A stretch of 34,959 nucleotides of DNA from Candidatus Uhrbacteria bacterium (lineage in GTDB: Bacteria > Patescibacteriota > Patescibacteriia > 2-12-FULL-60-25), in assembly GCA_003231955.1 (NCBI GenBank), contig QIKL01000033.1, positions 1 to 34,959 on the forward strand, in the 5' to 3' direction. Within the stretch, counting starts at the first letter, position 1. Every line of letters starts with the position of its first letter. Made by a program: the position numbers and the translations under genes. Of this stretch, positions 12,070-26,780 are shown in pieces. The notes below the pieces were generated by a model. It was not told the DNA's origin. It saw only the letters and a list, made by a program, of their open reading frames with translations, and did not search any database.

Positions 12070-12357
12070 TCAGTGTGTTTCGATTGGGATGACGTTGGCG
12101 AATTTTACTGTTTTAAACGCTCCAGTGAAGCGTTTAATTTTTTTATTCGTGAACTTGACAATGCCATTCGCGACTGCGAAGAGTGTGTCATCTTTACCGA
12201 TCATCACGTTTTGTCCAGGACGGATTCTGGTTCCGCGCTGACGAACGATAATGCTTCCTGTTTTTGCGTACTCACCCGCATAGAGTTTGGTTCCTAGTCG
12301 TTGACCTTGAGAATCGCGCCCGTTTGAGGTGGAGCCGCCAGCTTTTTTATGTGCCAT
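12070..12357 (-). CDS. rpmA: 50S ribosomal protein bL27
   Basis: The 95-residue protein starts with [16 protein letters not shown], the invariant L27 N-terminus that reaches the peptidyl transferase centre, and continues with [12 protein letters not shown] and [10 protein letters not shown]. There is no cleavable N-terminal extension of the Firmicutes type. L21 (rplU), the usual partner, is not adjacent. The gene stands alone between a bidirectional terminator and a divergent promoter region shared with the NifU-domain gene. Confidence 0.97.
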
Positions 12358-13122: not shown

Positions 13123-14172
13123 ATGTTGTCTCCTTCTACGTTTGCTTTGATACGTATCCTTGCCGTGACCTTTGTCTCTTTTGTTGTTGCTATGGCATGG
13201 GCGCCGGTGATTATTAGACTTCTTCGAAAGTTTAAAATTGGAAAGCAAATTCGTGATGCGGCAAAAGCGCCGATTATGGCCGCGCTTCATGCAGCAAAAG
13301 CGGGAACGCCGACTATGGGCGGGATTCTTATTTGGGTAACGGTTCTCGGCGTAATTTTATTCGCGTCGACGGGATGTGTATTTAATAACGACGTATGGTG
13401 CAATTGGAACTTTTTATCGCGGACACAGACACTGCTTCCGCTCGGCGCATTTATCGCCGCCGCACTTGTTGGACTGCTTGATGATTATCTCAACATGAAA
13501 CGCATCGGACCGGACGGCGGAGGTCTTCGAATGCGCCATAGACTTATTAGCTACACGCTCATCGCCGTCGGAGGCGCATGGTGGTTCTTTTCAAAACTTC
13601 AATGGGATGTTGTTCACGTTCCATTCGTTGGTAATTTTGAGATTGGGTGGTGGTACGTTCTTTTCTTCGTTTTTGTCATTATTGCGACCTCTTTTTCAGT
13701 CAATGAGACGGATGGACTCGACGGACTTGCAGGCGGGCCGCTTGTCGCAGCGTTTGCCGCATACGCGGTCATTGCGTACATGCAAGGAAAAGGAGATCTC
13801 GCAGTATTCTGCGCGGCGATCGTTGGAGCTCTCATGGCTTTTCTTTGGTACAATGTGCCCCCAGCGTCGTTTTTTATGGGTGATACAGGATCCATGTCGT
13901 TAGGGACGCTTCTCGGTGTCGTTGCCTTGTTAACAAATCAACCGTTGCTCCTCCCGATTATTGGCTTACCATTTGTGATTGAATCCGCGTCGGTTCTCGT
14001 TCAGATCACGTCAAAAAAGTTTTTTAAGCGCAAAGTGTTCAAGAGTGCGCCGATTCATCACCATCTTGAAGCGATTGGCTGGAAGGAATCGCAAATTGTT
14101 TTTCGTGTCTGGATTATTTCGCTCTTCTCAGCTGGACTGGGGGTCGTTCTTGCACTAAAAGATCTCCATTGA
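13123..14172 (+). CDS. mraY: Phospho-N-acetylmuramoyl-pentapeptide transferase
   Basis: This integral membrane enzyme makes lipid I from UDP-MurNAc-pentapeptide and undecaprenyl phosphate. The family motifs are in order: GTPTMGGILIW, ALVGLLDDYLNM with the Asp pair, NETDGLDGLAGG, FFMGDTGSMSLG, and PIHHHLEAIGWKESQIV. About ten hydrophobic segments are spread over 349 residues, close to the usual length. An extra loop near residues 80-100 contains two Cys (STGCVFNNDVWCNW). The next gene overlaps its stop region, indicating coupled translation with ftsW. Confidence 0.96.
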   Translation: MLSPSTFALIRILAVTFVSFVVAMAWAPVIIRLLRKFKIGKQIRDAAKAPIMAALHAAKAGTPTMGGILIWVTVLGVILFASTGCVFNNDVWCNWNFLSRTQTLLPLGAFIAAALVGLLDDYLNMKRIGPDGGGLRMRHRLISYTLIAVGGAWWFFSKLQWDVVHVPFVGNFEIGWWYVLFFVFVIIATSFSVNETDGLDGLAGGPLVAAFAAYAVIAYMQGKGDLAVFCAAIVGALMAFLWYNVPPASFFMGDTGSMSLGTLLGVVALLTNQPLLLPIIGLPFVIESASVLVQITSKKFFKRKVFKSAPIHHHLEAIGWKESQIVFRVWIISLFSAGLGVVLALKDLH

Positions 14173-14174
14173 GT

Positions 14175-15278
14175 ATGCGTGGAGTACGACAGCGGATTGA
14201 CAGACCGTTTCTTACGACACTCATTGCTATTGTCGTTTTTGGGCTTGTTATGCTGCTCTCCGCGAGTGGCCCGTTAGGCATTCAACGATTTAATGATAGT
14301 TGGTTCTTTTTCAAACATCAAATCGTGTATGGGATCATCCCGGGAATTATTCTTTTTTATGTGTTTTCACGTTTGGACTATAAAAAACTTAGAAGTCTTT
14401 CTTTTGCCGGTCTTGTCGCAAGCATTCTCTTATTAGTTCTTGTCTACTTACCTGGAATTGGATTGCATTTTGGTGGAGCTGGCCGGTGGGTCAGACTGGG
14501 ATTTTTTTCGTTTCAACCGTCCGAATTTGTAAAAGTCACATTTTTAATCTACGTCGCTGGATGGATGGCCGCACGCTATGAGACAACGGCACGGTCATTG
14601 CAGGAAGGATTGATCCCATTTTTATGTGCACTTGGGGCTGTTTTACTCCTCCTGATTCTTCAGCCGAACACGGGATCTATGACGATAATCGCCGGTTCTG
14701 CGCTGGCGGTATATCTCGTCGCTGGAGCTCCACTCGTTTGGTTTGCGGGAATCGGGGCGTTTGGCGTCGGTCTCATTGCGCTCCTTATTAAAATTACACC
14801 GTATCGCGCGGCGCGGTTCATGACCTTTCTACATCCAGAACTTGATCCGCAGGGAATCGGTTATCATATCAATCAGGCGTTTCTCGCTATCGGATCTGGT
14901 GGTCCGTTTGGTCTTGGTTATGGACAATCGCGCCAAAAATATTTATATCTTCCCGAAGTGGCAGGCGATTCTATTTTTGCGATTATCGCTGAAGAGATGG
15001 GATTCATCGTGAGTGTGTTTCTTATTCTTGCGATGGCTTTTCTTATATATCGTTGTTTTATTATTGCAAAGAGAGCGCCGGATGCGTTCGGTAAATTTCT
15101 CGCTGTTGGGATTGGCTCTTGGTTTGCGATTCAGTCGATCTTCAACATTGGATCGATGATTGGCCTCCTTCCCATCACGGGCGTGACGCTTCCCTTTATA
15201 AGTTATGGGAGTTCTTCGATGGTCGCACTTTTTATCGCTGCGGGAATTATCGCTTCGATTTCGCGGCAAATGCGTTAA
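14175..15278 (+). CDS. FtsW/RodA/SpoVE (SEDS) glycan polymerase
   Basis: This is a multi-spanning SEDS protein that polymerises lipid II. Recognisable blocks are GGAGRWVRLGFFSFQPSEFVK, LQPNTGSMTII, the large loop GYHINQAFLAIGSGGPFGLGYGQSRQKYLYLPE, GDSIFAIIAEEMGFI, and ITGVTLPFISYGSSSM. The conserved Asp of the active site is in the loop before AIIAEE. FtsW rather than RodA is suggested by its place between mraY and murG. The frame also allows a TTG at 14169, overlapping the mraY stop; the ATG at 14175 is preferred. murG follows after one base. Confidence 0.93.
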   Translation: MRGVRQRIDRPFLTTLIAIVVFGLVMLLSASGPLGIQRFNDSWFFFKHQIVYGIIPGIILFYVFSRLDYKKLRSLSFAGLVASILLLVLVYLPGIGLHFGGAGRWVRLGFFSFQPSEFVKVTFLIYVAGWMAARYETTARSLQEGLIPFLCALGAVLLLLILQPNTGSMTIIAGSALAVYLVAGAPLVWFAGIGAFGVGLIALLIKITPYRAARFMTFLHPELDPQGIGYHINQAFLAIGSGGPFGLGYGQSRQKYLYLPEVAGDSIFAIIAEEMGFIVSVFLILAMAFLIYRCFIIAKRAPDAFGKFLAVGIGSWFAIQSIFNIGSMIGLLPITGVTLPFISYGSSSMVALFIAAGIIASISRQMR

Positions 15279-15279
15279 T

Positions 15280-16344
15280 ATGAAGATTCTATTCTGCGGC
15301 GGAGGAACACTTGGACCGGTGATGCCGCTTATTGCAGTTTTGAGGAAGGCACGCGAATTAGATGTCCGGACTTTGGCTGTATGGGTGGGAACGGTACATG
15401 GTCCAGAAAGGGGGCTTGTCGAAGCGGAAAATGTTCCATTCCACGCAATTCCTAGCGCAAAGCTCCCAAGATATCCGAGTGTTGAGCTCCTAAAGGCTCC
15501 TGTACAGTATTTTTTGGCGGGACGGATGGCAAGACAAATTATACGACGCGAACGTCCAGATCTCGTCGTTACAGCGGGTGCGTATGTTGGTGTTCCAGTT
15601 ATCCGCGCCGCAGCAAAAGAAGGCATCGTCTGTGCACTTCATCAACTGGATTGGAAACCGACGCTTTCTAATCGACTTGTTGCACATATATGTCGTTCTG
15701 TGACGACGTCGTTTGTGTATGCAAATCCTCCGTTTGGTCCGCATGTCAAGTCTGTTCACGTCAAAACACCTTGCCGCTTCTCGGGATCAAAAATGCCGAC
15801 ATCGGAAGATGCAAAGCGTACTTTCGGAATCGCCGCGTCGCGAAAAGTTATTTTTATCCTTGGCGGCGGTACGGGCGCGCGCGCCATCAATGAAGCTATC
15901 AGAGACGTTTTGGATGAATTATTAGTCCACGCGGATGTGATCCATTCAACAGGAAAGGGAAAAGCGACCAGCGGACTGAAACGGCCTGGATATCATCCGT
16001 TTGAATTGATGCAAGAAATGAGTATGAGACAGGCCTATGCAGCTTCAGATGTTGTTATTTGTCGTGCTGGGATTGGAACGCTTTCAGAGCTTGCGGCGCT
16101 TTCAAAGGCTTCTATCGTGGTTCCGATTCCACGTTCGCATCAGGAAACGAATGCGCGAGCGCTGCAAGAAGGCATCATTTGGCTTCATCAGACACAAGAG
16201 CGATGTGGAGATGCGCTGCGAAATGCGGTGAAAGATTTACTTACACATGAGGTAAAAAGGAACATGCTTGGATCAAAGCTTCATCAGCTTTTTCCGACAG
16301 ATGACGGATATGCATTGGCAGAAAAATGGATGGATGGAATGTAA
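15280..16344 (+). CDS. murG: MurG-type UDP-GlcNAc:lipid I N-acetylglucosaminyltransferase
   Basis: A GT-B enzyme that completes lipid II. The N-terminal loop is CGGGTLGPVMPLIAVL, where typical MurG has GGGTGGHV, so the His is replaced. Other landmarks are VVTAGAYVGVPVIRAAAKE, LHQLDWKPTLSNR, FILGGGTGARAINEAI, and the C-terminal donor site VICRAGIGTLSELAALSKASIVVPIP with HQETNARAL. The length of 354 residues is normal. The ATG at 15280 follows the ftsW stop by one base; upstream in-frame starts lie inside ftsW. The divergent GxGG loop is common in reduced genomes, and the assignment rests on context as well. Confidence 0.9.
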   Translation: MKILFCGGGTLGPVMPLIAVLRKARELDVRTLAVWVGTVHGPERGLVEAENVPFHAIPSAKLPRYPSVELLKAPVQYFLAGRMARQIIRRERPDLVVTAGAYVGVPVIRAAAKEGIVCALHQLDWKPTLSNRLVAHICRSVTTSFVYANPPFGPHVKSVHVKTPCRFSGSKMPTSEDAKRTFGIAASRKVIFILGGGTGARAINEAIRDVLDELLVHADVIHSTGKGKATSGLKRPGYHPFELMQEMSMRQAYAASDVVICRAGIGTLSELAALSKASIVVPIPRSHQETNARALQEGIIWLHQTQERCGDALRNAVKDLLTHEVKRNMLGSKLHQLFPTDDGYALAEKWMDGM

Positions 16345-17393: not shown

Positions 17394-17468
17394 TGGTGCG
17401 CCCGGCGGGGATCGAACCCACGACCATTGGCTTAAAAGGCCACTGCTCTACCACTGAGCTACAGGCGC
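17394..17468 (-). tRNA. tRNA-Lys(TTT)
   Basis: Read on the minus strand, the acceptor stem GCGCCTG (5' end at 17468) pairs with CGGGCGC. The D arm is GCTC-AGTGGTA-GAGC, the anticodon loop CTTTTAA gives UUU, and the T loop is TTCGATC with the usual GTTCGA-type signature. The 3' CCA is encoded (17396-17394). The outermost anticodon-stem pair is G-A instead of a regular pair. It stands alone between the terminator and a glycosyltransferase gene. Confidence 0.95.
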
Positions 17469-17599: not shown

Positions 17600-18721
17600 A
17601 TGAGGATCTCTATGATTGGGTGCAAGGGGATTCCTGCCTTCGCATCTCAGGGGGGCGGGATCGAGACACATGTCGAAGAACTCTCGACGCGTCTTGTCGA
17701 ACGCGGACATACTGTCACGGTTTATGTTCGTCCGTATGCGAATCCAGACCGAAAAACATCATACAAGAACGTTCGTCTCGTGACGATCCCGACGATTCAT
17801 CGGAAGCACCTCGACGCAGTTACACATACGTTTCTTTCATCAATCCACGCACTTTTTACACGGTCGCAGATTCTGCACTACCATGGTGTAGGTCCATCGA
17901 CGCTTTCATGGATCCCGCGAGTTTTTGCGCCATGGAAAAAGGTCGTTGTGACATTTCATAGTCGAGATAGGTTTCATGAAAAATGGCAATGGTTTGCGCG
18001 AGCGTATCTTGCTTTTGGTGAATGGACGAGCGTACACTTTCCGCATGCGACAATTGCAGTCTCTCATTCAATTCAGGTATTTTGTAAAAAGACGTGGGGA
18101 GTGACAGTGTGGTATGTCCCGAATGGCGTGGAGATTCCAAGACTCCATCCAGGGACTGATTTGCTTCAAAAGTTTGGTTTAGAGCCTGAAAAATATTTTT
18201 TTACGTTAAGCCGACTTGTTCCTCATAAGGCGGTTGAAGATGCGATTAAGGCATTTGCGCAGATCGACACGGATACGAAGCTAATTATTATTGGAGCAGC
18301 ACCATTTAATGACACTGCGTATGAAACGATGCTTCAAAAACTCGCACAAAAAGATCCGCGCGTGATTATGGTCGGAAGGCAAATCGGAAAGGAACTGATA
18401 CAAATTATTGCCAATGCATATGCAATGATTCATCCATCGCGCAGCGAAGGACTGTCCGTTGCAGTGCTTGAAGCGATGTCTTACGGAAAAATGGTCATCA
18501 TGAGTGATATTTTAGAAAATTTGGAACTCATTGATCATTCTGGCGTCGCGTATAGTGTCGGAGATGTAAAAGCATTGCGAGACGCGATTACATGGCTCCT
18601 GAGCGATCCTGCAATTGTTAAAGAACGCGGAATTCGCGCGCGTGGAGTCATTGAGAGGCTCTATTCATGGAAGAGCGTCGTTGAGCGTACGGAAGCTGTG
18701 TATAGTTCATTATGCGGATGA
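17600..18721 (+). CDS. GT4 family glycosyltransferase
   Basis: This is a GT-B retaining glycosyltransferase of 373 residues. The N-terminal domain opens with ISMIGCKGIPAFASQGGGIETHVEELS, a glycine-rich acceptor loop, and contains VVVTFHSRDRFHEKW. The C-terminal donor domain starts near VWYVPNGVEIPR and has FFTLSRLVPHKAVEDAI and the EX7E motif (EGLSVAVLE, about 282-290), followed by AMSYGKMVIMSD. It heads an operon with a translin-like gene, a GT2 gene and murD, all overlapping by ATGA or nearly so, which suggests a surface-glycan or wall-linked role. A short ORF just upstream in another frame is not supported. Confidence 0.9.
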   Translation: MRISMIGCKGIPAFASQGGGIETHVEELSTRLVERGHTVTVYVRPYANPDRKTSYKNVRLVTIPTIHRKHLDAVTHTFLSSIHALFTRSQILHYHGVGPSTLSWIPRVFAPWKKVVVTFHSRDRFHEKWQWFARAYLAFGEWTSVHFPHATIAVSHSIQVFCKKTWGVTVWYVPNGVEIPRLHPGTDLLQKFGLEPEKYFFTLSRLVPHKAVEDAIKAFAQIDTDTKLIIIGAAPFNDTAYETMLQKLAQKDPRVIMVGRQIGKELIQIIANAYAMIHPSRSEGLSVAVLEAMSYGKMVIMSDILENLELIDHSGVAYSVGDVKALRDAITWLLSDPAIVKERGIRARGVIERLYSWKSVVERTEAVYSSLCG

Positions 18722-19284
18722 AGCGAACATTGGTCTTTGCAGATTTGGCGAAGCGGTATACTGCGTCGAAAGATGCGATGTATTTGTTACAACGGTTTGG
18801 ATCAGAACTGATACGGCTTTCAAAAACCGCGATATTCGCGATGCAACGTGGAGCGGATTCACCGAACGAAATTTGTTCTGCTGAAAAGATCTTAAAAAAA
18901 GGTCAAAAAATTATCACGCGGAATCCGCATCTGAAAGATGTCGGACCGTGGCAGGCTGGACTGGAAGAATATGCGGAGGCACTTTTATTTTTCGCATTCA
19001 TTCATGAAGATCAAACAACTTTCCATTTGGTTATGAAGATGGATCCGGGGATTACGATCGGAGCGTTGTCGGATTTTGTTGGAGAGTTGGTTCGACTTGC
19101 GGTGCGTGAAGCGACATATCGGCATACGGAGCGTGTAACAAAAATTATAGAGACCGCAAATGAGATCGTTGTGTTTTTGACATCATTGGATCTGACGGGC
19201 TCTCAGCGTTCTAAAGGTGATCAATCTCGACAGCATCTTCGTCGCCTTGAAGATATTCGATACGATCTTTCTCGCCATGTATGA
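18718..19284 (+). CDS. Translin/TRAX family protein (predicted ribonuclease)
   Basis: This all-helical protein of 188 residues matches the translin family. GLEEYAEALLFFAFIHED (81-98) aligns with the TRAX helix that carries two catalytic Glu, here Glu84 and Glu87. DFVGELVRLAVREA (119-132) aligns with DLTGELMR, with Asp119 in the third catalytic position. RRLEDIRYDLSRHV (175-188) is the typical translin C-terminus, preceded by RSKGD. Translin and TRAX bind single-stranded nucleic acid, and TRAX with these residues is a Mg-dependent RNase in eukaryotes and archaea. The ATG at 18718 overlaps the previous stop (ATGA); an ATG at 18712 is also in frame. The next gene again overlaps by ATGA. Confidence 0.82.
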   Translation: MKRTLVFADLAKRYTASKDAMYLLQRFGSELIRLSKTAIFAMQRGADSPNEICSAEKILKKGQKIITRNPHLKDVGPWQAGLEEYAEALLFFAFIHEDQTTFHLVMKMDPGITIGALSDFVGELVRLAVREATYRHTERVTKIIETANEIVVFLTSLDLTGSQRSKGDQSRQHLRRLEDIRYDLSRHV

Positions 19285-19964
19285 ACGGAGAACGAATAAA
19301 AAAATCGGTTGTGGCGGCGATTGTTGTCGCTTACAATGAAGAACCGACGATCAGTGCGATCGTGAAGGCATTGGTAGATTCAACGCTTTTCCGTGACGTT
19401 ATCGTGATTAGTGATGGTTCAACCGATGGAACTGCAGATGAAGCGCGCGCCGCGGGTGCAACGCTGGTCCACCAACTTCCTTGGAAACACGGGAAGGGTG
19501 CGGCGATGATGCATGGCGTTTCACATACGGATACACCAATTCTTTTTTTTGCGGACGCAGATTTGCTTGGGCTAACGCCGGACCATTTGAAGCGGATTTT
19601 GCGGCCCGTTCTCGCAGGCACACTTGCGATGTGCGTCGGTTTGCGTGACCGTGGGCCGATCCTTATGAAGATTTCGGCGCATCTTCCGCTTATTGGCGGC
19701 GAACGTGCGATGCGTCGTAATGTGTTTGAGGATATTCCAGATAATTTTATGCAGGGATTTATGGTCGAATCCGCGTTAAATTATTATTGTCGATCTCATC
19801 ATTTACCGTATGGAACTGTTGAATTACCGGGATTGCATATCCGACGCAAGATGCAAAAAGTTGGATTTTGGAAAGGATTAAAAGAATATCTCCACATGTG
19901 GCGTGAAGTCATTGGTGCAATGCTTGTTGTACGGATTGCATATCTGAAGGGTGAGTTCCTATGA
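19281..19964 (+). CDS. GT2 glycosyltransferase, DPM/GT81-like
   Basis: This compact GT-A enzyme of 227 residues has AIVVAYNEEPTI (13-24), VISDGSTDGT (42-51), GKGAAMMHGV as the conserved Lys-Gly loop, and FFADADLLGL (89-98) containing the DxD. This resembles dolichyl-phosphate mannose synthases and glucosyl-3-phosphoglycerate synthase-type enzymes, which use a polyprenyl phosphate or a small acceptor. There is no obvious membrane helix, although the C-terminal part is amphipathic and basic. It overlaps its neighbours by ATGA at both ends, in the operon that ends with murD. The acceptor is unknown. Confidence 0.88.
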   Translation: MNGERIKKSVVAAIVVAYNEEPTISAIVKALVDSTLFRDVIVISDGSTDGTADEARAAGATLVHQLPWKHGKGAAMMHGVSHTDTPILFFADADLLGLTPDHLKRILRPVLAGTLAMCVGLRDRGPILMKISAHLPLIGGERAMRRNVFEDIPDNFMQGFMVESALNYYCRSHHLPYGTVELPGLHIRRKMQKVGFWKGLKEYLHMWREVIGAMLVVRIAYLKGEFL

Positions 19965-21367
19965 CAGAACACTGGAAAGGAAAAAAAATTCTTATTTTGG
20001 GAATTGGATCATATCCAAAAGGGAGTGGTATCTCCGCGACCCTGTTTGCGGCGCGAAGCGGTGCGGATGTTCTCGCAACCGATCTGCGTTGTGACGCCGA
20101 TTTAAAGCGGGGAATTGCTCAGTTCAAAAAATTCAAAAATGTACGGTTTCGTCTTGGAAAGCATCATCTGGAAGATATTAGGTGGGCCGATATCATCATA
20201 CGTAATCCGCGTGTTCGCCCGACATCTCGAGAGATGGTTTTTGCTTCACGGCTCGGGAAACGAATTGAATCAGATATTTCTATCTTTCTCAAGAGATGTC
20301 CGTGTTCTGTTGTTGGAATCACAGGGACGAGAGGGAAAAGTACGAGTTCGACACTTGTTGCTGCGATGTTAAAAGCTTCAAAAAGACGAACGTGGCTCGG
20401 AGGGAATATTCGTGTCTCGCCGCTTACCTTTATGTCGCGCGTGAAAAAAACGGATGTTGTTGTCCTTGAACTTTCGAGTTGGCAGCTTGAGGTTACCGGG
20501 TCTTCGGGGATCTCGCCGCATGTGGCGTGTATTACAAATTTCATGCGTGATCATCTCAATTCCTACGAAGGTATGGATGATTATGGGGAGGCAAAAGCCC
20601 AGATTTTTCGTCATCAAGGGCCGGAAGACATTCTTGTTTTAAATATGGACGATGTGTTTTGTCGTTCAAAGCTTCGTGTTGCGCCAGGGCAGATGCTTTT
20701 TTTTGCGCGGCGGCGATCAAAAGGTGTCGATGCATGGATTGGAAGAGATGCGCTTTGGATGAAAGAGGAAAAACGTATTATCTCGTTAATTCCGCTTCGG
20801 TCTGTCAAAGTTTTTGGCGAACATAATCTTTTGAACATGCTTGCGGCTGCATTGACGGCGCGCGCGGCAGGTGCAACGCTCGCGGGGATTAAAAAGGCTC
20901 TTCGAGAATTCAAGGGGATCCAAGATCGGGAAGAGATTGTTGCAGTTAAAAAAGGAATTACATTCATTAATGATACGACGGCAACAACACCAGATGGAAC
21001 GATTGCTGCGGTTCATGCTTTTGCACCGAGATTCCAGACGCTTCGATTTATCGTCGGTGGGGCGGATAAGGGGCTTGATTTTACACAATTAGCGGCAGAA
21101 CTCGCGAAGTTTAACGTTGATATTGCCGTATTACCTGGTTCTGCTGGTGCAAAGTTTATGCGTGCGTTGGATCAAAAAAATATTCCGTACACAGCGACAA
21201 AGGGATTACGTGAAGCTTTTCGATATTTAATGCTTCAAGCGACGCGAGGGGATGTGGTTATTCTCTCGCCAGGTTGTGCGAGTTTTGGAGCATTTCAGAA
21301 TGAATTTGATCGCGGCGAGCAATTTCGTTGTTTAGTAAGAGGGATTGACGTGAAACGACGAGAGTAG
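19961..21367 (+). CDS. murD: UDP-N-acetylmuramoylalanine--D-glutamate ligase
   Basis: This Mur ligase adds D-Glu to UDP-MurNAc-L-Ala. The N-terminal Rossmann domain has ILILGIGSYPKGSGISATLFA. The ATP-binding loop is ITGTRGKSTSS (120-130), with Arg where most have Asn. LELSSWQLE and ITNFMRDHLNSYEGMDDY are MurD-type central motifs, HNLLNMLAA is the adenine site, and INDTTATTPDGTIAAV plus LSPGCASFGAFQNEFDRGEQF are the classic MurD C-terminal motifs. Length 468 is normal. It is the last gene of the GT4-translin-GT2-murD operon and is away from mraY and murG, which lie upstream in a different transcription unit. Confidence 0.95.
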   Translation: MTEHWKGKKILILGIGSYPKGSGISATLFAARSGADVLATDLRCDADLKRGIAQFKKFKNVRFRLGKHHLEDIRWADIIIRNPRVRPTSREMVFASRLGKRIESDISIFLKRCPCSVVGITGTRGKSTSSTLVAAMLKASKRRTWLGGNIRVSPLTFMSRVKKTDVVVLELSSWQLEVTGSSGISPHVACITNFMRDHLNSYEGMDDYGEAKAQIFRHQGPEDILVLNMDDVFCRSKLRVAPGQMLFFARRRSKGVDAWIGRDALWMKEEKRIISLIPLRSVKVFGEHNLLNMLAAALTARAAGATLAGIKKALREFKGIQDREEIVAVKKGITFINDTTATTPDGTIAAVHAFAPRFQTLRFIVGGADKGLDFTQLAAELAKFNVDIAVLPGSAGAKFMRALDQKNIPYTATKGLREAFRYLMLQATRGDVVILSPGCASFGAFQNEFDRGEQFRCLVRGIDVKRRE

Positions 21368-21690: not shown

Positions 21691-23565
21691 ATGACAGCTG
21701 GATATTTATCTATGCCATTTCCAAAATTTCTTAAACGCAAAACAACATACGCAATTTTGATTCTGCTTGTAGCTGGTGGATGGTGGTTTTTTGCGCAAAG
21801 TCGTAACAAAGGCCCTCATTATGAAACGGCCGTAGTTACGCGCGGTACGTTGCGTCAAACTGTGCAGGTGACAGGCGAGCTTAAACCAGCGACACGAACG
21901 GAACTTGCGTTCAAGAATCCTGGGACGATTGCCGCGATTAACGTAAAGATTGGCGATACAGTTAAAACGGGCGATATTCTTGCGACGTTAAAGGCTAATG
22001 ATGTTCAGTTTGCCGCAAAAAATGCCAGAGCAATGCTGGCAGTTGCGCAGGCAAATCTCAATGCCAAAAAGGCGGGGGATACTCCTCAAATTATTCGTGT
22101 TGCGGAGACACAGGTGGAACAAGCTGAGGCACAATATAAGAAGGCTGTTTCCGACGTAGATTCTAATAAAAAGACAACGCAAGATGCGGTGACCGCCGCT
22201 CAAATCGCGCTGCAGACGGCAAAAAATGATCTGGATAACCAAAATGCAATTGTCGCGCAAGACATACAAAACTCCATTGATGCGGCACGGCTTCAGCTTT
22301 TAGCGGCGCTCGGTCCGTTGAACAGTGGACTTTCCGACGGTGATCAAATTTCCGGCGTTGATAATACTGCGGCAAATCAGCTTTATCTTAATGTTTTGGG
22401 TTTTCTTGACATGGGTTCCCTTGATCGCTCAAAGGCTTCATATCTAAGGGCGAAGACTGCGAAATTGGATGCAGAAACATTTACACAGAATCTAACTCCG
22501 TCTTCAACAAAAGATGACGTTCAATCCGCGGCGGAAAAAATACAGAGCGCAATTACGGCCGTCCAGAGCTATCTTAGTGATGTTCAAAAAGTTCTTATTT
22601 CGAGCTTGACGGATTCAATGTTTACAAAAACGACGCTTTCCGCGGATAAGGCGATGATCAACGGCGATCGGACAACTGTATCCGCACAAAATACGGCCGT
22701 CCTTTCTGTTTTGCAGACAATTAAAAACACGGAACTAATGAAAATACAGACAATTCAAAGACTTAAAAATGCCTATAAAGCCGCACAAACCGCATATCAA
22801 ACGGCAACGACAAACGCAGATGTACAAGTCCGGGCCGCGGAGACGAATGTTGCAATCCAAAAAGCGGCTCTTGATTCAGCTCAAGCGATGTTAGATCTAA
22901 AAAAGTCTGGGCCGCGCGCGGTGGATCTCGCTCCATTGCATGCTACTGTTGAACAAGCGCAGGTTGCATATAACAGATCCTTAAACGATCTAAAAAATGT
23001 TCAGATCATTGCGCCAGTTGATGGAATTATCTCAGACGTGATCCCTGATATCGGCGAGCGGATCTCACCGAATGTCCCAGAAATTAACATGGTTGGAACG
23101 CAATCTTATGATATTCAGGCGCAGGTACCAGAGGCGGATATTACTAAAGTCCTCGTCGGCCAGACCGCTTCGACAACGCTTGATGCGTATGGAGACGGTG
23201 TGCAATTTGGCGGAAAAGTTACATCAAAGGACCCAGCAGAAACGCGGATTCAAGATGCGATCTATTATAATGTCCACGTTCAGCTAAATTCGGATGGACA
23301 TGAGGTTAAGCCTGGAATGACCGCAAATGTGACAGTGAATACTGGCGAAGCGGATCACGCGCTTATTATTCCATTGCGTGCTGTTCGGACGGACGCACAG
23401 ACCGGCATAAAGACCGTTCGGATTCTTGTAAACGGTATTGCGAAAACAAAGAAGGTCAAACTCGGATTGCGTGGTGACGAAGGGTTGATCCAAGTTTTGC
23501 ATGGGCTTTCTGAAGGCGATCAGGTTATTGTTGGTCAAACGGGTACATCTGCGTCAAAGGGCTGA
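21691..23565 (+). CDS. MacA/HlyD-type periplasmic adaptor-like protein
   Basis: This is the membrane-fusion partner of an ABC exporter, 624 residues, longer than the usual 350-400. One transmembrane segment lies at about 19-35. The first half of the lipoyl domain follows (TGELKPATRTELAFKNPGTIAAINVKIGDTVKTGDILATL, about 61-100). A very long Ala/Gln-rich coiled-coil hairpin (about 105-415) is then followed by the second lipoyl half (IIAPVDGIISDVIPDIGERI) and a beta-barrel with VKPGMTANVTVNTGE. The ATG at 21712 is an alternative start. The host is probably monoderm, so the adaptor may bridge the thick outer layer rather than an outer membrane. The ATPase gene follows after 5 bases. Confidence 0.9.
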   Translation: MTAGYLSMPFPKFLKRKTTYAILILLVAGGWWFFAQSRNKGPHYETAVVTRGTLRQTVQVTGELKPATRTELAFKNPGTIAAINVKIGDTVKTGDILATLKANDVQFAAKNARAMLAVAQANLNAKKAGDTPQIIRVAETQVEQAEAQYKKAVSDVDSNKKTTQDAVTAAQIALQTAKNDLDNQNAIVAQDIQNSIDAARLQLLAALGPLNSGLSDGDQISGVDNTAANQLYLNVLGFLDMGSLDRSKASYLRAKTAKLDAETFTQNLTPSSTKDDVQSAAEKIQSAITAVQSYLSDVQKVLISSLTDSMFTKTTLSADKAMINGDRTTVSAQNTAVLSVLQTIKNTELMKIQTIQRLKNAYKAAQTAYQTATTNADVQVRAAETNVAIQKAALDSAQAMLDLKKSGPRAVDLAPLHATVEQAQVAYNRSLNDLKNVQIIAPVDGIISDVIPDIGERISPNVPEINMVGTQSYDIQAQVPEADITKVLVGQTASTTLDAYGDGVQFGGKVTSKDPAETRIQDAIYYNVHVQLNSDGHEVKPGMTANVTVNTGEADHALIIPLRAVRTDAQTGIKTVRILVNGIAKTKKVKLGLRGDEGLIQVLHGLSEGDQVIVGQTGTSASKG

Positions 23566-23570
23566 TTGAT

Positions 23571-24305
23571 ATGGGGAGTCCAGTGATTCGGGTTGTCGAC
23601 CTAAAAAAACAATATGAAAATGACGGAGTGATCACGCCCGTCCTTCATGGATTGACGTTTGATGTGAATCCAGGAGAGTTTGTGGCGATTATGGGTCCGT
23701 CGGGATCTGGGAAATCTACGCTCATGCATATCCTTGGATTTCTTGACACGCTGACTTCTGGAAAATACGAATTTAACGGGAAAGATGTTTCAACGCTGGA
23801 TGAAGATCAGCTCGCGGACATGCGCGGAAGTGAGGTCGGATTTATTTTTCAAGCGTTTAATCTTTTGTCGCGAACGACAGTTATGGAAAATGTTATGCTT
23901 CCATTACTGTATTCTAATATTCCAGTTAGTAAGCGAAAAGAAATGGCACGGAAGACAATCGCAGCCGTCGGACTTGAACATCAAATTAACAATTTATCAA
24001 ATCGGCTCTCTGGAGGCGAGCGGCAACGTGTAGCAATTGCGCGGGCATTTGTCCGAGATCCTTCTGTTATTTTTGCGGATGAACCGACTGGAAATCTCGA
24101 TTCCCGCAGCGGGACGCAGGTAATGGAAATCTTGCAGAAACTAAATCGTGAAAGCAAGCGCACAATCATCCTTGTGACGCATGAAACATATACTTCAGAA
24201 CATGCGCAGCGGATCTTGCGGATTAAAGATGGATTGATCCAGTCGAACGAGCCTGTGGAGAATCGACGATTTGCGCATGAAAGCGTGGCGGAGCAACTAA
24301 AATAA
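23571..24305 (+). CDS. MacB/LolD-type ABC transporter ATPase
   Basis: All motifs of an active ABC ATPase are present in 244 residues: Walker A GPSGSGKST (42-50), Q-loop in GFIFQAFNLL, signature LSGGERQ (146-152), Walker B VIFADEP (166-172) and H-loop His204 in VTHE. DEPTGNLDSRSG is typical of the LolD/MacB subfamily, which drives mechanotransmission rather than classic transport. It pairs with the two following permeases and the preceding adaptor. The permease gene starts one base after the stop. Confidence 0.96.
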   Translation: MGSPVIRVVDLKKQYENDGVITPVLHGLTFDVNPGEFVAIMGPSGSGKSTLMHILGFLDTLTSGKYEFNGKDVSTLDEDQLADMRGSEVGFIFQAFNLLSRTTVMENVMLPLLYSNIPVSKRKEMARKTIAAVGLEHQINNLSNRLSGGERQRVAIARAFVRDPSVIFADEPTGNLDSRSGTQVMEILQKLNRESKRTIILVTHETYTSEHAQRILRIKDGLIQSNEPVENRRFAHESVAEQLK

Positions 24306-24306
24306 T

Positions 24307-25536
24307 ATGCTTCTGCAGGATTTGGTCACAAGTTCGTTTCAAAGCCTCGGACGGACAAAAGGCCGGTCCGCATTGACGATGCTCGGAATCGTTATTGGGG
24401 TTATGTCGGTTATTCTCGTTCTTTCAATCGGCGAATCTGCGCAACAGCATATCCTTGGGCAGATCTCTGCATTTGGATCAGATGTGATTTTTATTCGGAA
24501 CGGTCCGGTGCAGTCAACGGGACAACCTTCGCCATTTTTTAAGGAAAGTTTAACGTATAAAGACGTGAAACGGCTTGCATCTTATCCATGGGTGAAATCT
24601 GTGCTCGGTGCGTTTCTTCAGCAAGATTCAATCACGGCGCTTGGTATTACGACGAGTGCACAGATCACGGGGACGATGCCGGACGAGCTTAATTTTTCAG
24701 CAACACCACTAGCTGAAGGGACATTTTTGACGCAATCCGATGTCGATAGCCACGCGCGCGTCGCCGTTCTTGGTTCGGATGTAACGAATGCGGCGTTCGG
24801 TTCTGAGGATCCAATCGGAAAATTTATTAAAATTAACGATGTTCAATATCGTGTCATCGGTAATATGGCTCGTGCAGGATCAAGCGGTTTTTTTAATCCA
24901 GATCGTGCGGTGTATGTCCCCGTAACCTCAGCTCTTGATGCATATCACAAAAAATATCTTAGTTATATTCAGGTTAAGACGTCATTTACGAACCTGAACG
25001 AGGGGAAGGACCGAATCGCGGCGGTTATGCGTGATCGGCATAATATTGACAATCCAACGGGTAATCCGATCAAGGACGATTTTAATCTCGTATCACAAAA
25101 GGATGCGATTAAAATTGTGTCAACTGTCACAAATATTTTACAGATTCTGTTATCGTCGATCGCGGCAATCTCTCTTTTAGTCGGAGGAATCGGGATCATG
25201 AACATTATGTATGTCACTGTAACTGAACGGATTCATGAAATAGGACTTCGGAAGGCACTCGGTGCGCGTAAGCACGACATTTTGAGTCAGTTTTTGTTTG
25301 AGGCTGTGATTCAGACACTCCTTGGAGGATGTATCGGGATTGTCTTGGGTATTGCGTTCTCTTGGGTTGGAATTCAAATTATTAGTCAGTTTCAAGGAGG
25401 GTGGAAGTTTACGGTCTCAATAAACGGCATCATCCTTGGATTAAGTGTTTCCGCCGCCATTGGATTAATTTTTGGTTTTTTCCCTGCTCGTAGCGCGGCA
25501 GAATTAAGCCCGATTGACGCTTTGCGCCGAGAGTAG
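24307..25536 (+). CDS. MacB-type ABC permease, first copy
   Basis: The 409-residue protein has the MacB layout: one N-terminal transmembrane segment (LTMLGIVIGVMSVILVLSIG, about 24-43), a large extracytoplasmic MacB_PCD domain (about 45-280), then three C-terminal segments, with GGIGIMNIMYVTVTERIHEIGLRKALGARKHDI as the coupling region contacting the ATPase. Unlike full MacB, the ATPase is a separate polypeptide. It is about half identical by eye to the following gene and probably arose by tandem duplication. The next gene starts 5 bases after its stop. Confidence 0.94.
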   Translation: MLLQDLVTSSFQSLGRTKGRSALTMLGIVIGVMSVILVLSIGESAQQHILGQISAFGSDVIFIRNGPVQSTGQPSPFFKESLTYKDVKRLASYPWVKSVLGAFLQQDSITALGITTSAQITGTMPDELNFSATPLAEGTFLTQSDVDSHARVAVLGSDVTNAAFGSEDPIGKFIKINDVQYRVIGNMARAGSSGFFNPDRAVYVPVTSALDAYHKKYLSYIQVKTSFTNLNEGKDRIAAVMRDRHNIDNPTGNPIKDDFNLVSQKDAIKIVSTVTNILQILLSSIAAISLLVGGIGIMNIMYVTVTERIHEIGLRKALGARKHDILSQFLFEAVIQTLLGGCIGIVLGIAFSWVGIQIISQFQGGWKFTVSINGIILGLSVSAAIGLIFGFFPARSAAELSPIDALRRE

Positions 25537-25541
25537 CTCTT

Positions 25542-26780
25542 ATGAAGATTCGAGATCTTTTTCCTCTTTCGATGAAGGCATTGCTTGCAAACAAAGGACG
25601 GTCGTTGTTGACCATGCTTGGGATTATTATTGGCATCGCCTCCGTAATCCTTATGCTCGCCGTCGGTCAGGCGGCGCAAGGATATCTTCTCTCGCAAGTC
25701 GCAAGTTTTGGGAGTGATTTTATTTCCGTTGAAAACGGAAAACCAAGCGAAGTACGCGGTCGTCCGCCGAATCCCACAGTCAAACAATCTTTGACATACA
25801 AAGATTATAAAAAGATTAAGGGAGAAATATGGGTTCATGCGGCGACGGCAATTGTTCTCGCTCGGGATTTGGTCTCCTACGGCGGCGTGGACACATTGAC
25901 TCAAGTCACGGGGGCGACGCCCGGAGATCCTATTGTTTTTAACGGCGCCGTTAAAAAAGGTTTATATCTCTCAAATGAAGATATTTATTCACATACGCGT
26001 GCCGTCGTTCTTGGTTCTAAAGTTGCGGATGAATTATTTGGACAGGAAAATCCCATCGGAAAGACGATTAAAATTACAAAACAGCCGTTTCGTGTTATCG
26101 GCATAATGAAGCCAGCAGGAACTCGATTTTTTAGGGATGCCGATGATCAGGTCTATATTCCGGTCACAACGGCACTTGATCTCTATCATAAATCGTATGT
26201 CGACTATCTTGGGATTAAAATTCGAGATACTGTAAATATCACGCGAGCAAAAGAGCTGACGCAAGTCGCTCTGCGAGAATCGCATAATATCTATAATCCG
26301 ACGGGAGATCCTTCGAAAGATGATTTTGTTGTCGCATCACAGGAAGATGCGATTAAAAGCGTCGCGACAATAGGGACAATTCTCCAGATTCTTTTGGGTT
26401 CCATCTCTGGAATCTCGCTCGTTGTCGCTGGTATCGGGATTATGAACATCATGTATGTGACTGTTACGGAGCGGACGCGCGAGATTGGACTTCGGAAGGC
26501 ACTCGGCGCGCGCAGGCATGATATTCTCGGACAATTCCTTTTTGAGTCTATGATTTTGACGGTGATTGCGGGGGTAATCGGCATTGCCGTGGGAATAGGC
26601 GCGAGCTGGCTTGTCGTCCGAATTATTTCTCACTATCAGTCAGGCTGGACCTTTTTGATACCGTGGTTCGGGGCGCTGCTCGGATTTAGTGTTTCCGCTG
26701 GGATTGGAGTTTTGTTTGGATATTTTCCGGCGCGAAAAGCATCTGCTTTTAAACCTATTGACGCGTTGAGATATGAATGA
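25542..26780 (+). CDS. MacB-type ABC permease, second copy
   Basis: A paralogue of the preceding permease, 412 residues with the same plan: N-terminal segment LTMLGIIIGIASVILMLAVG, MacB_PCD domain, and GIGIMNIMYVTVTERTREIGLRKALGARRHDILGQFLFE before three C-terminal segments. The two copies diverge most in the extracytoplasmic domain, which suggests a heterodimer with two different faces, or two exporters sharing one ATPase. It is the last gene of the export operon; a hairpin-capable repeat follows before hrcA. Confidence 0.94.
   Translation: MKIRDLFPLSMKALLANKGRSLLTMLGIIIGIASVILMLAVGQAAQGYLLSQVASFGSDFISVENGKPSEVRGRPPNPTVKQSLTYKDYKKIKGEIWVHAATAIVLARDLVSYGGVDTLTQVTGATPGDPIVFNGAVKKGLYLSNEDIYSHTRAVVLGSKVADELFGQENPIGKTIKITKQPFRVIGIMKPAGTRFFRDADDQVYIPVTTALDLYHKSYVDYLGIKIRDTVNITRAKELTQVALRESHNIYNPTGDPSKDDFVVASQEDAIKSVATIGTILQILLGSISGISLVVAGIGIMNIMYVTVTERTREIGLRKALGARRHDILGQFLFESMILTVIAGVIGIAVGIGASWLVVRIISHYQSGWTFLIPWFGALLGFSVSAGIGVLFGYFPARKASAFKPIDALRYE

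Follow-up and report, generated by a model that had tools for sequence, protein, structure and literature searches.

A single-copy TRAX-type member of the translin superfamily encoded in a murein and glycosyltransferase operon of Patescibacteria

A contig of a Candidatus Uhrbacteria bacterium (QIKL01000033.1; its 34,959 nucleotides are called here the window) contains a gene of the translin superfamily which, judged by the amino acid sequence of its product, is of the catalytic TRAX type, with the TRAX acids complete, and not of the translin type. By profile search the gene is present in a single copy in the source genome, it lies in an operon-like group of murein and glycosyltransferase genes, and it is inherited vertically throughout the window's class, which we take to be the ABY1-like Patescibacteria. 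This class consists of ultra-small, streamlined bacteria; to our knowledge, translin and TRAX have been studied almost exclusively in eukaryotes and archaea.

The open reading frame of the TRAX gene starts at the ATG in position 18718 or at an in-frame ATG in position 18712, and ends with the stop codon at 19282-19284; the reverse complement of this stretch shows several stops in the one frame that was read. ATGA overlaps join the gene to a GT4-type glycosyltransferase gene upstream and to a GT2-type glycosyltransferase gene downstream, as described in the initial annotation. The order on the forward strand is mraY, ftsW, murG, a frame of 289 amino acids, GT4, TRAX, GT2, murD, a short frame and genes for a MacA-like adaptor, an ABC ATPase and a pair of permeases, followed by hrcA, grpE, hsp20, dnaK and dnaJ (Table 1). 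A scan for promoters and terminators between positions 12300 and 22000 gave matches barely above those of shuffled sequences.

Table 1. Position of the TRAX gene and of its neighbours in the window
Feature	Position	Strand	Length	Remarks
mraY	13123-14172	+		upstream of TRAX
ftsW	14169-15278	+		upstream of TRAX
murG	15205-16344	+		upstream of TRAX
Frame of 289 aa	16436-17305	+	289 aa	between murG and tRNA-Lys
tRNA-Lys (anticodon TTT)	17394-17468	-		between murG and GT4; oriented divergently to GT4 and TRAX
GT4-type glycosyltransferase	17600-18721	+	373 aa	ATGA overlap with TRAX
TRAX-type translin-superfamily gene	18718-19284	+	188 aa	PF01997, predicted fold, alignment
GT2-type glycosyltransferase	19281-19964	+	227 aa	ATGA overlap with TRAX; missing in some relatives
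murD	19961-21367	+		TIGR01087, E 3.5e-108; overlaps GT2
MacA-like adaptor, ABC ATPase, two MacB/FtsX-like permeases	21691-26780	+		after murD

The TRAX protein matches the Pfam Translin family (PF01997) with an E-value of 2.5e-11 and 44.4 bits (cut-off 25.9), the best-matching stretch being residues 116-185, and the same family is matched by 33/33 aligned relatives. The predicted structure (pLDDT 96.9, pTM 0.90) has seven helices in an all-helical translin fold, and the 50 best Foldseek matches listed from the PDB are all translin, TRAX or C3PO chains. The top matches, with TM-scores of about 0.7-0.84, are NeC3PO with single-stranded RNA, apo NeC3PO, human C3PO and AfC3PO; the scores of the model range between 0.77 and 0.84 to NeC3PO, and between 0.69 and 0.83 to AfC3PO. 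A profile of the bacterial family compared with PDB sequences ranks NEQ131 (8e-20), AfTRAX (3.5e-19), human TRAX (6e-17) and fly TRAX ahead of every PDB translin (about 1e-7). The assignment to the translin/TRAX family made in the initial annotation therefore stands, on a significant PF01997 match and a predicted helical fold like that of C3PO structures. An identity as DarP, suggested by a weak library match under the cut-off, was dropped, and PADLOC gave no match to antiphage defence systems.

Alignment places Glu84, Glu87, Asp119 and Glu123 of the protein at Glu126, Glu129, Asp193 and Glu197 of human TRAX; the first three of these had already been proposed as TRAX acids, and the fourth had gone unnamed. 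The human translin and TRAX sequences used were checked residue for residue against PDB 3PJA. Human translin shows Arg, Phe, Ile and Glu at these positions and keeps only E150, and since all four TRAX acids are present in the window protein it does not belong with the non-catalytic, translin-type subunits. The relatives in the core alignment are just 22-47% identical to the query, yet the four acids are invariant in 54/54 complete relatives. They are the predicted metal-binding catalytic acids, and in the modeled fold they would cluster in three dimensions. The AfTRAX residue matching Asp119 is Asp in PDB 3ZC1 and Ala in PDB 3ZC0, which fits, as we infer, a catalytic mutant made for the RNA complex. 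Furthermore, Arg126 and Glu178 correspond in the alignment to Arg153 and Glu206 of human translin, which form a salt bridge needed for octamers and the mutation of which leads to dimers (PMC3834833); Arg126 is invariant in the 54 complete relatives, and Glu178 is kept in all but one, which has Gln. Arg164 and Lys166, also invariant, are located in B3, a nucleic-acid-binding region (PMC3299731). A rough tree with human translin as its root groups the bacterial sequences together with archaeal TRAX placed next to them, at moderate support and with partial archaeal sequences. Conservation of the catalytic, octamer-interface and nucleic-acid-binding positions of an RNase family, together with a nearest fold that is C3PO with single-stranded RNA, makes it very improbable that the translin fold was repurposed for envelope synthesis with a substrate other than RNA, for example a nucleotide-sugar or a nucleotide. 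That reading draws on the genomic context and on the label 'haloacid dehalogenase superfamily' given by NCBIfam to related proteins, which we dropped as a name and not a test.

The protein is probably a homo-octameric, metal-dependent endonuclease of single-stranded RNA that serves general RNA turnover and is co-expressed with growth genes. As a TRAX-only member of the translin superfamily, catalytically intact as far as its residues indicate, it would be the bacterial counterpart of archaeal C3PO. It would assemble as a homo-octameric barrel with the divalent-metal sites formed by the four acids facing the cavity, and would take in short single-stranded RNA and cut it endonucleolytically; its physiological role may be general RNA turnover or the clearing of processing by-products, e.g. 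pre-tRNA leaders. A TRAX-only C3PO is already known in archaea (PMC9051087, which cites Zhang 2016), and in Nanoarchaeum Trax alone reportedly degrades RNA through oligomerisation (PMC9051087). The window protein is like the archaeal TRAX-only complexes, NEQ131 of Nanoarchaeum equitans (PDB 5JR9/5JRC) and AfTRAX of Archaeoglobus (3ZC0/3ZC1), in length, all-helical fold, the four putative catalytic acids and the presence of one TRAX-type gene with no partnering translin; however, its host is bacterial (Patescibacteria), the structure-aligned identity is 18-19%, and it lies in a murein operon, whereas archaeal TRAX genes adjoin SepRS and endonuclease V (PMC8762117). With human and Drosophila C3PO, a translin-TRAX hetero-octamer, it shares the fold, the counterparts of TRAX E126/E129/D193/E197 and the translin R153/E206 pair; in contrast to them, a separate translin gene was not found in the window's genome, and the RNA interference context of eukaryotic C3PO is not applicable in bacteria.

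Profile searches found TRAX in 28/36 genomes of the window's family and in 35/57 relatives overall. Of 380 genomes sampled across the phylum and tallied by hand from the results table, 21/33 from the class had TRAX versus 4/347 from elsewhere in the phylum, so the trait belongs to this class of Uhrbacteria-like Patescibacteria, where it is common, and is seldom found outside it. There is one TRAX copy per genome, and consequently no separate translin gene was found in the genomes with TRAX. In line with vertical inheritance, the distances between TRAX sequences correlate with those of GT4 (r 0.57) and of murG (r 0.69), with 0/2000 permutations for these correlations.

GT4 is found directly upstream of TRAX, on the same strand, in 24/26 family loci with upstream sequence. 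A murein or division gene (probes: mraY, ftsW, murG, murD, another Mur ligase, DivIC and mltG; counted by hand) is near TRAX in 42/51 class loci, 24/28 in the family and 18/23 in other families, although these loci are related by descent and the counts are thus non-independent events. The same probes gave 0/20 in the flanks of PNPase genes of the class, which rules out a chance neighbourhood. The placement of the gene in an envelope operon, stated firmly in the initial annotation, is therefore borne out, and this context is widespread in the class with varied arrangements: GT4-TRAX-(GT2)-murD, P-type ATPase-TRAX-Mur ligase-DivIC-PPIase, and mltG-TRAX. Exceptions include hrcA-TRAX-grpE (L132) and T2SSE-like ATPase-TRAX-metallophosphatase (L134, and L138 with the same layout), and the four relatives outside the class adjoin genes of NYN-domain, RmuC/Mrr-like, or Wzy_C and UvrD proteins.

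The tight overlaps with both glycosyltransferase genes, the constancy of GT4 and the murein genes in at least three arrangements would suit a dedicated envelope regulator, in which a TRAX octamer cuts specific transcripts, either the mRNA of its own operon or a small RNA, and balances the supply of glycosyltransferases and MurD with growth. A murein link stronger and more varied than plain inertia requires (GT4/murD, Mur ligase with DivIC, mltG) also counts against the general-turnover reading. We nevertheless consider such a regulator unlikely: its synteny is inherited, some families have TRAX at the hrcA/grpE or T2SSE-like ATPase sites, in the four relatives outside the class the neighbouring genes are not murein genes, and TRAX is cleanly lost from intact loci. 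A class-wide bacterial C3PO acting as an RNase barrel in a cell-wall operon, with post-transcriptional feedback on murein and glycosyltransferase output, is distinctly unlikely.

The losses come from eight family genomes in which TRAX was absent by two profiles, one of them the family profile. The GT4 locus was recovered in six of the eight, and in these the gene immediately after GT4 is GT2 or murD, leaving no room for TRAX; a divergent TRAX hidden in the negative genomes is thus rejected, as the family profile finds none and the operon closes up. Because all six loci keep tRNA-Lys, GT4, (GT2) and murD, murein synthesis does not need TRAX, and TRAX, unlike an obligate murein-synthesis gene, is not kept wherever the operon is kept. 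The functional coupling of an RNase to glycosyltransferase and MurD expression, in the form proposed initially, is not supported: these 6/6 loci of close relatives do without TRAX, and at other loci in the class TRAX sits by other genes. Under general RNA turnover, TRAX would take no part in murein chemistry, and shared expression may be all that connects it with the cell wall: we propose that its transcription together with murein genes stems from the inheritance of tRNA-Lys, GT4, TRAX, GT2 and murD as one growth-linked block.

The tRNA-Lys(TTT) gene is located upstream in 25/25 evaluable family loci, including two without GT4 (L037 and L039), and in 10/22 other loci of the class. This synteny is compatible with a TRAX partnership, in which TRAX would remove pre-tRNA 5' leaders or tRNA fragments and the neighbouring tRNA-Lys would reflect that role, and the archaeal SepRS and endonuclease V neighbours, as well as the action of Neurospora C3PO on pre-tRNA leaders (PMC3834833), point the same way. 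However, tRNA-Lys is just as conserved in the six loci without TRAX, so it marks an old block and not a TRAX partnership; tRNA synteny is common, a conserved tRNA-Arg(TCT) and/or tRNA-His being found in the PNPase flanks of about 8/20 class genomes (L144-L163); and the distribution of the RNase P protein does not follow that of TRAX. We accordingly regard tRNA-Lys as a TRAX-specific partner as rejected, and a tRNA-linked nuclease as improbable. Among the 57 class genomes (G000-G056), the RNase P protein was found in 51 and PNPase, by its RNase_PH domains, in all 57, both irrespective of TRAX, while RNB-family exoribonucleases (RNase R/II) were found in 0/57. Since none of these tracks TRAX, replacement of a missing RNase was rejected and no RNA pathway gap filled by TRAX was found, which counts against the general-turnover reading.

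The view that this is a new setting for the family is supported in part: the murein operon context is real, whereas bacterial members of the superfamily are not new, having been reported by Gupta, Kale and Kumar 2012 (J Mol Evol 75:155), a work compared here through its citations in PMC5424206 and PMC8762117. Searches of the literature that combined translin with Patescibacteria or the Candidate Phyla Radiation found no report; as far as these searches tell, the class-wide TRAX in Patescibacteria and its long-lived murein context are new. A conserved TRAX with a complete active site in an ultra-small bacterial class offers a simple one-gene C3PO for study, and raises the question of what the family did ancestrally in organisms that have no RNA interference. 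Furthermore, its lasting proximity to murein genes suggests a testable connection of RNA decay with wall growth.

Some additional features were observed around these loci. The 289-amino acid frame of the window has no Pfam, NCBIfam or PADLOC match, and no counterpart was seen at that site in relatives, the gap holding unrelated frames on either strand. The tRNA-Lys gene is on the operon's own strand in L045, L046 and L123. In four loci, the GT4 site between tRNA-Lys and TRAX is occupied by a P-type cation ATPase (about 890 amino acids), identified by Pfam in L127 and by similarity in L124, L128 and L139. Finally, the Mur ligase of L128 (6548-7855, forward strand) contains the middle and C-terminal domains preceded by about 42 residues from its putative start, and a Mur ligase with such a short N-terminus follows TRAX in many class genomes.
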